Below are positions 17,489-22,383 of a stretch of DNA of 22,386 nucleotides, in pieces. A program made the translations under genes and the position numbers. Position 1 is the stretch's first letter. The number at the start of each line of letters is the position of its first letter. This DNA is from a virus. The stretch spans positions 1-22,386 of the IMG/VR virus record IMGVR_UViG_3300021520_000012. One strand, given 5' to 3'. The notes beneath the pieces were generated by a model. The model was not told the DNA's origin. It made no database searches and saw only the letters and a program-made list of their open reading frames with translations.

Positions 17489-18856
17489 CTATTCCTCGCT
17501 TATGGGATTTTTATTGGTTCCCGCGCTGTAATCTGGGGCTTTAGTTGCGCCAGCCAATTCAACATCCTCATCGGTCATGCCTGAGTAAGTACCGCTGGTT
17601 TGCAATGTCTTAGCCACTACGCTCTCAGTAAGTACGCCAAGGGATAAATAGATCTGATCGCGTTGAGCGTTTGATAGCTCGATCTTGGCTTTGTCCATAT
17701 CGGACATTTGCCATAGAGAATTGAAATCGAACTCGTAGTCCTCTGGCATATCGCCAAGAGCCGAACGAATCAATATCTGATCGAGTTTTTCGAGTTGCGG
17801 TCTTAACTCTGATTCTTGTTTTGCATGAATCGAGTCGTAGTAATTCGATAGGTCACCGTCACCAGTAGCATTTAAGCCACCAGGGGATTGACCAAATAAA
17901 CGAGTTCTGGGGATTTCTGAGGCGCCACATACATCGTCTGAGAACTTATCAAGCAATGCATCTAGGCCTCCAAAGGTATAGCTCTTTTGCTCGTAATCCT
18001 CTTCGCCACCGATGACTAGCGTGTTATTGACACTTTTCATCATTGAGGCAAGGTTTAGGCGCTTGATTAAGTTTGCTTCGCCATCCCTTGTAGAAACTAA
18101 GTCACCAAGGTTAGGGATTTTGACCACATCAACTTTGGATTCGTAGATCAATGAGCCTGCCACTGAGCTTGCTGTGTCTTTATTAAGAACCGCATCCCAA
18201 ACAGTCATCAATACCGAGTCTGACCATCTTGCGTTAGCAATCCAAGGTAGATAAGGGAGTTTTTGGCCATCAAACCGCAATACACGGCTATGGTGGTAAA
18301 CAATCCCACTCTCTGCTACTTGATAGGTAACTGGTAATCCAAAATCAGGGGAATCTAAATCAGTAACGAGTTCAGCCGATGGGCTTACTCTCCAACGATC
18401 GACTACTTGAAGATAACTAAGTCCGCCTAGTTCGATAGCTTCAACATCGAGCTTAGTAGCTAATACATTAGGGTCGGCCTTCGCATCCTCTGTACCGATC
18501 AGGATAAGGCTACCTCCGTATAACCGACCCCAGCGTATTGCTTCATTAGACTTGCCCCGCACATTTAAGCGGCGCCCTTCTCTTTCAATGGCTTTAAGCT
18601 GAGTTCCGTCATCATCAGCAATTTCTAAATCACGCCAGTTGCGTGTCATGTCATCAGCTACGGCACTAACAATCCGATTGCTGATCCATGATGTGCGAAA
18701 AGCATTTTCAAGCGTTACACGGTCTTTGATTACTGCTTGATATGAAGCATAGGACTTCTTATCCTTGTTCGACCCTACCCCTGCTATGACGTTCTCTAAG
18801 CCATCTTTGGCTACTAAGGACTTTGCTTTAGCAGTAATAGGCTTAGAGGTTTTCAT
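17489..18856 (-). CDS. Portal protein (DUF1073)
   Basis: A 455-residue protein next to the large terminase, matching the DUF1073 portal family: RLYGGSLILIGTED at about 111-124, YLQVVDRWRVSP near 148-159, YHHSRVLRFDG near 187-197, and the strong signature EIPRTRLFGQSPGGLNATGD at about 314-333. A TTG at 18901 would add 15 residues, but ATG at 18856 gives a modest 14-bp overlap with the terminase gene and is preferred; its ribosome site is weak. Some databases label this family by an Acb1-like anti-CBASS name because of fusions. No Acb1 domain is seen here; the protein ends normally. It forms the dodecameric DNA gate. Confidence 0.88.
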   Translation of the reverse strand: MKTSKPITAKAKSLVAKDGLENVIAGVGSNKDKKSYASYQAVIKDRVTLENAFRTSWISNRIVSAVADDMTRNWRDLEIADDDGTQLKAIEREGRRLNVRGKSNEAIRWGRLYGGSLILIGTEDAKADPNVLATKLDVEAIELGGLSYLQVVDRWRVSPSAELVTDLDSPDFGLPVTYQVAESGIVYHHSRVLRFDGQKLPYLPWIANARWSDSVLMTVWDAVLNKDTASSVAGSLIYESKVDVVKIPNLGDLVSTRDGEANLIKRLNLASMMKSVNNTLVIGGEEDYEQKSYTFGGLDALLDKFSDDVCGASEIPRTRLFGQSPGGLNATGDGDLSNYYDSIHAKQESELRPQLEKLDQILIRSALGDMPEDYEFDFNSLWQMSDMDKAKIELSNAQRDQIYLSLGVLTESVVAKTLQTSGTYSGMTDEDVELAGATKAPDYSAGTNKNPISEE

Positions 18857-20285
18857 AGAGTGAGTTTCTTGTGTTCGCCAACATATCTGTAATGGCGTCA
18901 ATCATTGGGTCGATCTGGTCATCATGTTTATGCGTGTTATCAGGCGTAAACGATTCACACTCAGTCACAAAGTCGCTAGTGAAAGAGGCTTGTGATGGAA
19001 TGCAGACCAGCTTTGCTTCTATATGACTCACTACATCCATGAGGCGAGTGAGTTTGTCTTTAACGCGAGTAATCCCTTTAATGGGGATATGCCCGAGAGC
19101 TTTAATTTCTTGAATAAGCCCAGTACCTGAACTAGCCTCTTCGACTAGCATCTGCCTGAGTACGGGAGCGTGATAGTCACCCTCTCCAATAGCTAGATGC
19201 TTTTGCCAGAAGGCAATTGCTCTTCGCTTCATTTCGGGGGCTTCCCACTTACCTCTGATTTGATCTATGAGATAAATTCGACCATCTTCACCACGGCCCC
19301 AGCATTGGAATACTGAGTAATCGTTTCGCTCACCCGTCTTTTGGGCGGTATCGGCGAATATCTTGCGGTAGAGCAATCTAGGTAAAGTTTCATACCTTAC
19401 GAACCACTCACCTTTAATCAGTCCACCACCTAAAGGTGATGGTCTTTGTTGGTACTGCCCGGCAAAGGTATAGGAATCAGCTTTCTCCATTTGCTGTAAA
19501 CGCTCTAAAGAATGTTTATCAGGCCATAAAGGAGTGCCATCATCTTGAATTGCTGGTAGGCATAAGTGAGTCCACTCTTCACCTGACCCGCCACCAAGTA
19601 GGTAGCCAGTCATATCATCCTCATGCAATCTTTGCATGATTACGATTACTGGGGTATCAGGGCTATTTAAGCGGCTGGCAATCGTATTGTTGAATCGGCG
19701 ATTGATACGACCTCGAATAGTGTTCGAGAAAGCATCATCAGGCTTTAATGGATCATCAATAATTAAGGCGCCATTGAAACCTTCGGCTGGTAATCCAGTT
19801 CCGAATCGCTCTCTGCCTAATGCGCCAGCACCGAATCCAGTTACCGGGCCACCTGTGCCGGTAGCGTACATACCGCCACCGTCTGTTGTGTACCACTTCT
19901 TTTTACTGTCTGAATCGTCTTTGATACCTGTAGGGAATAAGGCTTGATACTCTTCGCTCTTAACTAACTCACGAACTACTGAGCTGTTATCTAATGCCAA
20001 CTCATCCGAATAGCTTAGATGAATGAACTTAGCTTTTGAGTTATTGGCAAGGCACCAGGCTATGAACAGCTTAACTACTAATTCAGTCTTACCGTACCGA
20101 GGGGGTACATTGATAATCAACCGCTTGGTATGCCCTGCCGCTAATTTTTCTAATGCTTCGATGATCCTGTCATGGTGTGGCGCGAATATGAATTCAACAC
20201 CGCTAAGAACCTTAAAGTAGATGCAAACAAAGTATTTGAAACTAGCTAAAGCGCATGAGTATTCATCTTTTTGAGATTCATTCAT
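18843..20285 (-). CDS. terL: Terminase large subunit
   Basis: A 480-residue protein with an N-terminal ATPase and C-terminal RNase-H-like nuclease. The Walker A-like loop is PPRYGKTE at 61-68; the Walker B strand ends ALIIDDP at 173-179. Nuclease candidates are Asp312 in FADTAQ, Glu382/383 in VEEASSG, and Asp455/456 in HKHDDQID, the usual acidic cluster. It drives DNA packaging through the portal and cuts the genome ends. Its start overlaps the small terminase gene by 8 bases (ATGAATGA). Its size is normal for the family. Whether the phage uses cos or pac ends cannot be told from this sequence. Confidence 0.93.
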   Translation of the reverse strand: MNESQKDEYSCALASFKYFVCIYFKVLSGVEFIFAPHHDRIIEALEKLAAGHTKRLIINVPPRYGKTELVVKLFIAWCLANNSKAKFIHLSYSDELALDNSSVVRELVKSEEYQALFPTGIKDDSDSKKKWYTTDGGGMYATGTGGPVTGFGAGALGRERFGTGLPAEGFNGALIIDDPLKPDDAFSNTIRGRINRRFNNTIASRLNSPDTPVIVIMQRLHEDDMTGYLLGGGSGEEWTHLCLPAIQDDGTPLWPDKHSLERLQQMEKADSYTFAGQYQQRPSPLGGGLIKGEWFVRYETLPRLLYRKIFADTAQKTGERNDYSVFQCWGRGEDGRIYLIDQIRGKWEAPEMKRRAIAFWQKHLAIGEGDYHAPVLRQMLVEEASSGTGLIQEIKALGHIPIKGITRVKDKLTRLMDVVSHIEAKLVCIPSQASFTSDFVTECESFTPDNTHKHDDQIDPMIDAITDMLANTRNSLYENL

Positions 20286-20817
20286 TACCTACCGATAGCC
20301 CAAGTCTTTTTAGGCGATCCCTAATTTCGTTAGCTGGGATTCTTAGGCCGCCATTGTTATTGATCTGTATCAGGGTTTCAGGTGACTTACCCAAAACACC
20401 GTCACGACTCTTTTGCAATATGTTTGCGGCTGCATTCATATCTTGAAAGCTCATCTCATCCGATACCCAAGGCTTACCATCCTCACCAAGCGTAATATGC
20501 TGGTCCAATTTCAATAGGGTAAGTTGAGCCAGTTTGTTTTGACTGTTGTCGTAGAACTCAATATGCTTTGTTTTTTCTTCGACTACGCTTTCAATAGCGG
20601 TCACATTGCGGTCATCATGCCCCGCTAAGCCATGTAGGTACTCAATTCCTGCGGTCACGATGACCGCTGTATCTTGTGGCATTCCTTTTGTCAGCTTATT
20701 AACTGCGCCCTTACTTACGCCATGGCGATCCGCTAGTTTTTGCTGGCTATATTCACCAGTACGCCACTCAGCAATAATTGCTTGCTTGATGGAGTCTTGA
20801 ATAGGTTTTGCAGCCAT
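20278..20817 (-). CDS. terS: Probable terminase small subunit (HTH protein)
   Basis: A 179-residue protein immediately before and overlapping the large terminase gene. Residues 12-45 contain a helix-turn-helix (EWRTGEYSQQKLADRHGVSK followed by GAVNKLTKG), as in many small terminases that bind the packaging site. The middle is helical with an acidic/basic mix (EEKTKHIEFYDNSQNKLAQL), and the C-terminus carries IPANEIRDRLKRLGL, which could contact the large subunit. ATG at 20817 directly follows the previous gene's TAG. The role is based on position and fold pattern. Confidence 0.78.
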   Translation of the reverse strand: MAAKPIQDSIKQAIIAEWRTGEYSQQKLADRHGVSKGAVNKLTKGMPQDTAVIVTAGIEYLHGLAGHDDRNVTAIESVVEEKTKHIEFYDNSQNKLAQLTLLKLDQHITLGEDGKPWVSDEMSFQDMNAAANILQKSRDGVLGKSPETLIQINNNGGLRIPANEIRDRLKRLGLSVGNE

Positions 20818-21051
20818 CTAAGCACCAAACAGGCTATTAGCCTTCTCTAGTGCTGAAACTGTCTTAGCCCTGTAGTCACCGCATAGGGACATTCTTGTGC
20901 CAACATGGTCGTGCTTATTGCACACTCTGATTCTCTTACTGCCGACATAAGCATGACTCTTGCAAGTCCTGCACACCTCTGATGATTTAGATTGATCGTC
21001 TCTCTCAGCCTTGATATGCGGTGGTAAGTATTCTCGTTGGGTAAAAGTCAT
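20818..21051 (-). CDS. Small four-cysteine, probably zinc-binding protein
   Basis: A 77-residue protein with cysteines at 27, 30, 44 and 57 (VCRTC, then RVCNKHDH, then SLCGDYRAK) plus His47 and His49, a spacing that suggests a zinc ribbon. The end is helical. Small cysteine proteins of this kind sit next to terminase genes in other phages; no function is established to my knowledge. ATG at 21051 has no recognisable ribosome site, and a structured RNA segment ends 33 bases upstream, so its translation may depend on that leader. The stop abuts the small terminase ATG (TAGATG). Confidence 0.6.
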   Translation of the reverse strand: MTFTQREYLPPHIKAERDDQSKSSEVCRTCKSHAYVGSKRIRVCNKHDHVGTRMSLCGDYRAKTVSALEKANSLFGA

Positions 21052-21083
21052 CTAGTGAGTGATGCGGTTGTTTAGTTATTGAA

Positions 21084-21186
21084 TACCCCGTTCTGCCTAG
21101 CTTTGGCAAGGTGGGGTAAGGCCTGTAGCCTCGGCACCGAGTTCTCCCAATGCCTAGCCAACCTGATAAGCCAAAAGGCTTACAGG
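21084..21186 (-). ncRNA. Structured RNA leader with alternative stems
   Basis: Three paired elements are visible on the minus strand. (a) CCTGTAAGCC at 21186-21177 can pair locally with GGCTTATCAGG (ending 21162) or, with one bulged A, with GGCTACAGG at 21130-21122. These two states exclude each other. (b) GGCATTGGG, loop AGAA, CTCGGTGCC at 21154-21133 is a 9-bp stem whose three G-T wobbles are possible only in the minus-strand RNA. (c) TACCCC at 21118-21113 pairs with GGGGTA at 21089-21084, with an inner TGCC/GGCA stem. The segment precedes the cysteine protein gene. It could be a regulatory leader or a DNA site for packaging proteins; no known riboswitch is recognised. Confidence 0.45.
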
Positions 21187-21203
21187 AAATCACTTAAAGA
21201 CAT
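21180..21203 (-). CDS. Possible 7-codon leader peptide
   Basis: ATG at 21203 begins a seven-codon frame (MSLSDFL) ending in TAA at 21182-21180, inside the 5' arm of the alternative stems of the downstream RNA structure. AGGA lies only 3 bases upstream of the ATG, which is close. A ribosome stopping here would cover that arm and change which stem forms. Short ORFs arise easily by chance, so this is tentative. Confidence 0.2.
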   Translation of the reverse strand: MSLSDFL

Positions 21204-21297
21204 ACTTCCTTACGGCTGACAACTCAAGACGAATATCAGTCACTAAATTAGTTATTTGATGAGGACTTATTGCGAAAATTGTCATGCGTAAGAAAGC

Positions 21298-21318
21298 AAA
21301 AAGCCCCCGAAGGGGCTT
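21298..21318 (-). terminator. Strong intrinsic terminator with UUCG loop
   Basis: Minus strand AAGCCCC, TTCG tetraloop, GGGGCTT, then a T-run: a 7-bp stem closed by the very stable C(UUCG)G loop. It shares a 13-base identical stretch (GGGGCTTTTTGCT) with the terminator after the antitoxin gene. No protein gene lies between the two, so this one should end a short transcript. Confidence 0.88.
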
Positions 21319-21420
21319 AGCCGACCATTAAAAATGATCTAGGTTAGATTCCGTTACCTCTGCGGTTGCAGAACCAAATTGGCGGCTAGTCCTTTTTTCA
21401 CCACTTATAGGACTTCTTTA
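21298..21420 (-). ncRNA. Candidate small RNA between two terminators
   Basis: This roughly 120-base minus-strand segment lies between two copies of a similar terminator and has no credible ORF. It contains three small hairpins: AGTCCT (21414-21409) with AGGACT (21393-21388); TCTGC (21372-21368), loop AACC, GCAGA (21363-21359); and ATCTA (21349-21345), loop ACC, TAGAT (21341-21337). The UUCG terminator follows. A TATAAG at 21408-21403 could be a -10 box, but no good -35 is at the right distance. Expression is not shown. Confidence 0.35.
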
Positions 21421-21425
21421 GCAAA

Positions 21426-21454
21426 AAGCCCCAAACTTTTTAGGTAAGGGGCTT
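21426..21454 (-). terminator. Terminator downstream of the antitoxin gene
   Basis: Minus strand AAGCCCC, 15-base loop, GGGGCTT then TTT: a 7-bp stem with a T-run. It lies about 140 bases beyond the antitoxin stop and should end the AlpA-toxin-antitoxin transcript. The T-rich side fits only minus-strand transcription. Confidence 0.75.
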
Positions 21455-21542
21455 CTTATTAGATCAACACATCATATAGACGCGTTAACCTTGTGAGGAT
21501 TGTATCGTGTTTTAGGGTGTTTTTATGCCGTTTTTAGAAGTG

Positions 21543-21574
21543 ACATTGTGTACATTGTGTACATTGTGTACATT
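21543..21574. repeat. 9-bp tandem repeat, 3.5 copies
   Basis: The unit ACATTGTGT is repeated three times exactly plus five further bases, without a mismatch. Each junction gives the palindrome TGTACA, spaced 9 bases apart. It lies 20 bases past the antitoxin stop. Phased short repeats can bind a regulator or replication protein, or can be simple slippage; nothing here decides between them. Confidence 0.85.
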
Positions 21575-21593: not shown

Positions 21594-21884
21594 TTAAGCG
21601 CTTGCCATTGGTCTAACCATTGGCTTAATTTTTGGAATGCGTAATTTCCTTGCTTGCCATAAATCCCAAGCAACTTGCATACCTAGCCAAACATCGGGTG
21701 ATGTACCAAGCCATGCGGATAACTTAATCGCCATGGGTGCAGTAATACCAGCTCTAGCGTTCAAAATCTTAGATAGAGCAGTTCTAGACATCTTAAGGTC
21801 TTGCGCAGCCTGCGTAACAGTTACATCACCAATCCACTCCCTTAATACTTCCCCTGGGTGTGCTGGGTTGTGCATTTCACTCAT
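21594..21884 (-). CDS. higA: HigA-like antitoxin (XRE family)
   Basis: A 96-residue protein with the classic opening of HigA/VapI antitoxins, NPAHPGEVLREWI, then a helix-turn-helix (TQAAQDLKMSRTALSKILNA) and the family sequence AGITAPMAIKLSAWLGTSPD followed by W-x-x-M-Q. It should bind and neutralise the neighbouring toxin and repress the operon. An in-frame ATG at 21890 stands only 1 base from AAGGAG, whereas ATG at 21884 has it at 7 bases, so I chose the latter. The toxin stop overlaps this ribosome site. The C-terminal tail after residue 80 is basic. Confidence 0.9.
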   Translation of the reverse strand: MSEMHNPAHPGEVLREWIGDVTVTQAAQDLKMSRTALSKILNARAGITAPMAIKLSAWLGTSPDVWLGMQVAWDLWQARKLRIPKIKPMVRPMASA

Positions 21885-21895
21885 ATTCATTCTCC

Positions 21896-22174
21896 TTAAT
21901 GGTAGTCCTGATAGTTAACCAAAACTGCATCTTCACCTTCAAACCTAAATGTCATTCTCCAGTTGCCACTTACTGATACTGACCAATGATTTTTAAGATC
22001 GCCTGAAAGCGGGTGTAATCCCCACCCTCCTACGTTCATATCTGCCTCATCTTTGGCTTTATCCAATAGAGACAGCATCAAGCGCAACTTGCTGGCGTGA
22101 GAAGCATTTATTCCAGCCCTACTTCCATTCTCAAAGAACTCTCTCAGTCCCTTGTGTTTGAATGTCTTTATCAT
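21896..22174 (-). CDS. higB: HigB-like toxin (RelE/ParE superfamily)
   Basis: A 92-residue protein matching the HigB-1 pattern: IKTFKHKGLREFFENGSRAG at the start, a helix with ASKLRLMLSLLDKA, then LHPLSGDLKNHWSVSVSGNW and the RMTFRFEG strand typical of the family, ending NYQDYH. Relatives are ribosome-dependent mRNA interferases. The order toxin-then-antitoxin is the normal HigBA order. It overlaps the upstream AlpA-like gene by 4 bases (ATGA) and has only a weak ribosome site, so its translation is probably coupled to that gene. Confidence 0.9.
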   Translation of the reverse strand: MIKTFKHKGLREFFENGSRAGINASHASKLRLMLSLLDKAKDEADMNVGGWGLHPLSGDLKNHWSVSVSGNWRMTFRFEGEDAVLVNYQDYH

Positions 22175-22383
22175 GAGTCTATTGTAGCGTGTTGCTTAAC
22201 ACTTTGCAATAAGGTTTTGACCAGCAATTTATATGTAGCATCCGAATAGCCTGATACACGAGTGTTTATTGGGTTTGGGTGCTCAAGTGAAGGCCATTTA
22301 CCAGAATTAACGTTGTTATAAAGAGTTTTATGGCCTATCCCCAAATTAATGCAAATCTCTTTAATTCGATAAAAGTAGTTCAT
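22171..22383 (-). CDS. AlpA/excisionase-like DNA-binding protein
   Basis: A 70-residue protein. YRIKEICINLGIGHKTLYNN is a winged-helix or MerR-like helix-turn-helix, followed by NSGKWPSLEHPNPINTRVSG and a YSDATYKLL end; the P-x-P-x-x-x-x-R-x-x-G-Y/W pattern is that of AlpA-type regulators and phage excisionases. The ATG at 22383 is 3 bases from the window edge, so its ribosome site and promoter are not visible and an upstream start cannot be excluded. The 4-base overlap with the toxin gene makes it the first visible gene of a three-gene unit. Confidence 0.65.
   Translation of the reverse strand: MNYFYRIKEICINLGIGHKTLYNNVNSGKWPSLEHPNPINTRVSGYSDATYKLLVKTLLQSVKQHATIDS

Follow-up and report, generated by a model that had tools for sequence, protein, structure and literature searches.

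A putative terminator-gated, structured leader RNA ahead of the packaging genes of a temperate phage

The lambda pR' leader transcript is short and ends at tR'. Late leaders of this type (pR'-pause-tR', with Q antitermination) resemble the locus described here, which is also non-coding, carries terminators, separates the early region from the late operon and is part of a temperate phage that encodes nin-type proteins (NinB, RusA). As in the lambda-type leaders, intrinsic terminators, in this case T1 and T2, stand between the promoter, a putative one here, and the late genes. The locus differs from them in that no Q protein of PF06530, PF03589 or PF06323, the Q families listed in PMC7171158, was found among the 10 early proteins scanned against Pfam, in that its two terminators are followed by ~200 nt of hairpins, and in that the packaging genes, not the lysis genes, come first. 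A second comparison is offered by the put RNA of HK022, which is about 70 nt long, has two stems, renders polymerase resistant to termination and is found in early transcripts (PMC9378689). The likeness lies in nascent hairpins near the 5' end of a phage transcript, upstream of terminators (PMC9378689), and is one of layout; the hairpins first noted in our locus lie, in contrast, 3' of the terminators. Leader-peptide attenuators of the erm/trp type share a short ORF ahead of alternative stems, but here the alternatives are 5 kcal/mol apart, the start of the ORF lies buried, and neither state acts on a terminator or on the start codon that follows. GOLLD and ROOL are large structured non-coding phage RNAs as well (PMC12286853), whereas the present leader is smaller, is laid out as a hairpin array, has no tRNA nearby and has no match in Rfam.

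The phage is known from two metagenome contigs that are identical where they overlap. The window analyzed here is the whole of record IMGVR_UViG_3300021520_000012 (22,386 nt), whose convincing genes are all on the minus strand. They encode tail and baseplate proteins, head proteins, the portal, the large terminase subunit TerL (18843-20285; phrog_38, E 7e-117), a probable small terminase subunit TerS (20278-20817), assigned from phrog_1206 (E 0.0027) and its position before TerL, and a 77-aa cysteine protein (20818-21051; CxxC...C...C), which is weakly endonuclease-VII-like, has no Shine-Dalgarno (SD) sequence and is the first gene 3' of the leader. Upstream of the latter are HigA, HigB and a 70-aa HTH-like protein. 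The second contig, IMGVR_UViG_3300020163_000027 (L002/L003/L005), overlaps the window at 100% identity and reaches into the early region, where CI-like and Cro-like regulators, replication genes, NinB and RusA are encoded, together with a DUF968/HNH protein, a 67-aa protein resembling sigma-70 region 4 (L003:2429-2632, minus strand; PF04545 E 6e-5) and a 136-aa protein of unknown kind. The phage is temperate, with a lambdoid-style layout, and the leader sits between the early/nin-type genes (NinB, RusA, DUF968) with HigBA on one side and TerS-TerL-portal on the other. The HigB-HigA toxin-antitoxin pair (21594-22209) has its own sigma-70-type promoter at 22209-22181 and is placed in the manner of a moron, with the early region on one side and the late operon on the other. 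Judged by codon use, the 77-aa cysteine protein ranks at the 1st percentile among the genes of this phage, and searches for homologues were negative; the gene may have been horizontally acquired, or it may be a doubtful gene. A single-sequence structure model of its product was unusable (pLDDT 50).

The first-pass annotation had drawn attention to a 120-nt segment (21084-21203). Our analysis revealed that this segment is only the 3' third of a non-coding leader of ~440 nt, extending over about 21491-21052 on the minus strand. Among 202 windows of 440 nt, 21051-21490(-) showed the largest folding excess, -9.67 kcal per 100 nt, placing it about 4 sd away from the minus-strand mean of -1.28 (sd 2.1), and the plus strand of the leader had half the folding excess of the minus strand. 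The fold of 21020-21500(-) gave a z of -7.95, global folds at 440 nt being unreliable in detail, with domain B (below) and the closing helices of low probability. Stop codons are present in all three frames of the leader, and the one open frame over its 3' part has non-coding codon use.

The 5' side of the leader is described here in the direction of the minus-strand RNA. Tandem 9-bp repeats of TGTACACAA (21543-21574, 3.6 copies) are a candidate activator or operator site of the leader promoter; of two tandem arrays in the window, this one scores higher and it alone is perfect. In L145, a motif similar to TGTACACAA occurs at the promoter of a gene for a probable ribbon-helix-helix-type antitoxin. 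Next comes a candidate -10 box, TACAAT (21499-21504), without a good -35; a sigma-70 scan left this box unscored because no -35 matches it. The start predicted from TACAAT falls near 21492-21494, a few bases 5' of the first hairpin. This hairpin, H1 (21461-21491), would form the 5' end of the transcript and consists of 13 bp with several G-U pairs (mean pair probability 0.99). It is followed by T1 (21422-21458), an 11-bp hairpin and T-run resembling an intrinsic terminator, by the branched domain B (21318-21388), closed by TAGCCG/CGGCTA with moderate pair probabilities of 0.4-0.8 and folding modestly better than its shuffles (z -1.92), and by T2 (about 21296-21318), an intrinsic terminator found by scan and made up of AAGCCCC-TTCG-GGGGCTT and TTTGCTTTCT. 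T1 or T2 may have no role beyond terminating the HigBA transcript. A long stem of 21 bp (12+9, with a 2x2 internal loop) then spans 21203-21298, its arms at 21298-21276 and 21225-21203 pairing with a probability of 0.97-0.98; it was reached in 0 of 300 shuffles, where the longest stem had 18 bp.

Four abutting hairpins, H5-H8, lie 3' of the 21-bp stem. H5 (21162-21186) is the local hairpin of the arm CCTGTAAGCC (21186-21177) with its partner GGCTTATCAGG (21172-21162). In H6 (21133-21154), nine GU-rich base pairs between GGCATTGGG and CTCGGTGCC are predicted by folding to enclose an AGAA loop. H7 (21118-21132) is a 6-bp hairpin, GAGGCT/GGCCTT, with a probability of 0.87, and H8 (21085-21117) is a two-part hairpin, ACCCC..TTGCC/GGCAG..GGGGT, with probabilities of 0.94-0.99. 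A short unpaired A-rich stretch separates H8 from the cysteine protein gene. The stems and the 7-codon frame reported by the first-pass annotation are all present exactly where it had placed them, and its preference for the minus-strand RNA was borne out, with -50.0 kcal/mol (z -3.2) for this strand vs -39.6 (z -2.1) for the plus strand, whose RNA loses the GU-rich hairpin 21154-21133. The 120-nt fold as a whole exceeds chance, and because 21081-21200(-) has the lowest MFE among 1114 windows of 120 nt, we regard this fold as real in a thermodynamic sense.

The explanation that we favor, and to which we give somewhat better than even credence, is that the late operon of this temperate phage carries a structured, terminator-gated 5' leader whose hairpins are stable and do not switch. 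The promoter, the activator, the control of read-through and the processing are parts of this model that we infer. Under this model, transcription would start near 21493 from an activator-dependent promoter, the polymerase would run into the intrinsic terminators T1 and T2, and a late regulator would let it pass both of them. The read-through RNA would then fold into the 21-bp stem and the four stable hairpins, and the short A-rich stretch, left unpaired, would be the site from which the genes for the cysteine protein and the terminase are translated without an SD. Most likely the hairpins are static and protect or process the late mRNA while keeping the leader untranslated, and the 21-bp stem is plausibly an RNase III site. 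A long structured leader is a possible way for this seemingly uncatalogued temperate phage to insulate and time its packaging genes.

As to the agent that would carry the polymerase past T1 and T2, none of the known Q families is represented among the early proteins scanned, and a sigma-region-4-like protein is encoded nearby. The latter, the 67-aa protein described above, is encoded near the usual site of Q and other late activators and is a candidate late regulator. For these reasons, we also keep RNA-driven read-through (cf. HK022 put, PMC9378689) at a low probability. It is quite improbable that the 440-nt leader represents a new RNA class that replaces a Q-type protein, either by itself driving the polymerase past T1/T2 or as a stable packaging RNA. 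A late region without Q is nonetheless worth flagging, as RNA-based or sigma-like control is conceivable.

The T2-ended transcript (~195 nt, 21493-21297) could instead be an independent small RNA, with the downstream hairpins made from a separate late promoter located between T2 and 21203. The -10-like box (21504-21499), H1, T1, domain B and T2 do form a compact unit, and such a transcript would be similar to the one from lambda pR' that stops at tR'. However, T1 precedes domain B, the z of domain B is modest, and the scan found no promoter between T2 and 21203; we consider this arrangement unlikely, although it fares best among the alternatives to the terminator-gated leader.

Sites of the cos type or for terminase binding are often found just upstream of terS. 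The location of the segment beside terS and its inverted repeats would fit a DNA element of this kind, in which case the repeats would mimic RNA stems by accident. Against this, the stems rely on G-U pairing and lose strength in the plus-strand RNA, an asymmetry that a DNA dyad would not show, and both contigs run unbroken through the region. This possibility therefore appears distinctly unlikely.

The first-pass annotation had itself proposed mutually exclusive stems with a tiny ORF ending in the shared arm. On this model, translating the 7-codon frame would move the arm 21186-21177 from one pairing to the other, local hairpin or long-range stem, and so control the packaging genes. Both pairings do exist: the arm can also pair with the distal partner GGCTACAGG (21130-21122), forming a long-range stem that encloses H6, which is present in both alternative states, and the frame ATGTCTTTAAGTGATTTCCTGTAA (21180-21203; MSLSDFL*), with a weak SD-like TAAGGA 3 nt 5' of its ATG, stops inside the arm. 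The energies do not support a switch, as the local state (-50.0 kcal/mol) is 5.1 kcal/mol more stable than the long-range one (-44.9), the local hairpin dominates with a probability >0.95, H7 takes up the distal partner, and the long-range pairing has an occupancy of ~1e-4 in the full leader, which does not exceed 7e-4 when the transcript is shorter. Nor are the competing arms clearly above chance. A competing pair occurred in 37% of shuffles under a loose test; a strict one (at least 9 near-Watson-Crick pairs) lowered this to 1.7% of shuffles, a figure in favor of the switch, but 15 of 744 windows of the genome were as good. The same holds for the tiny ORF, which is present and ends in the arm, while an SD-led ORF of 3-25 codons arises in 14% of leader shuffles. 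Moreover, the 21-bp stem buries both the SD and the AUG of this ORF in the full leader, and the SD is unpaired at no more than 0.01, both there and in a leader starting at 21300. Since the two alternatives share one arm, a ribosome on the stop codon of the frame would preclude the one as much as the other. No U-run follows either fold, neither forms a terminator, and the start of the next gene, 33 nt further downstream in unpaired sequence, is neither masked nor freed by them. It is true that this gene lacks a ribosome site, but this is ordinary here, since TerL, the portal, HigB and several tail genes also lack an SD as annotated. A structured leader ahead of the packaging and late genes thus survives from the original proposal, on the strength of its position, strand asymmetry and over-stability, whereas the leader-peptide stem switch does not. 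We consider the switch very unlikely; it is unsupported on the present single-sequence evidence and should not be carried forward as such. Least probable of all is that a small gene of 62 aa (21193-21005) spans the segment and makes the folding incidental, since the open GTG frame that exists there was rejected on its codon use, which scores lower than every in-frame window of the phage genes and ranks at the 40th percentile among off-frame windows, and no homologue of it was found.

Returning to the leader RNA, the only relative that we found was the 100% identical contig IMGVR_UViG_3300020163_000027, so that the 'conserved-looking' label given to the enclosed stem by the first-pass annotation has a single sequence behind it. 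For the cysteine protein and TerS, no close relative beyond that contig was detected in phages, viral contigs, plasmids and genomes, within the extent of the searches made for each. TerL does have clear relatives, at 56% identity or less, and the regions upstream of these contained nothing leader-like by blastn or by the single-sequence covariance models R1 and R2. We rejected the one weak genome match of the covariance models, which lay within a sensor-kinase gene in antisense orientation. When the leader was compared by blastn with 399 genomes of one order, the matches were chance ones of 20-43 nt, and the model matches were likewise at chance level. Searching Rfam gave 0 hits at the gathering threshold and nothing relevant at E up to 10, GOLLD and ROOL included, and ARAGORN was negative. 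DNA-pattern scans with a 47-mer, the GU hairpin, the arm hairpin, domain B and the repeat array were discarded as giving chance matches only; besides the identical contig, these fell inside unrelated genes or unrelated tandem repeats.

Some structured stretches were noted elsewhere. Model R2 weakly matched a terminator-like hairpin between tail genes of the window, at 592-680 on the minus strand; the match probably reflects the terminator part alone. Located 2 kb upstream of a related terminase, a giant near-perfect inverted repeat (L011:1098-1529, z -16) has the appearance of a palindromic mobile element. Structured intergenic stretches with repeated GGGGCAG or GGGGGTC units are also found upstream of two related terminases (L024:1880-2118 and L025:1835-2120).
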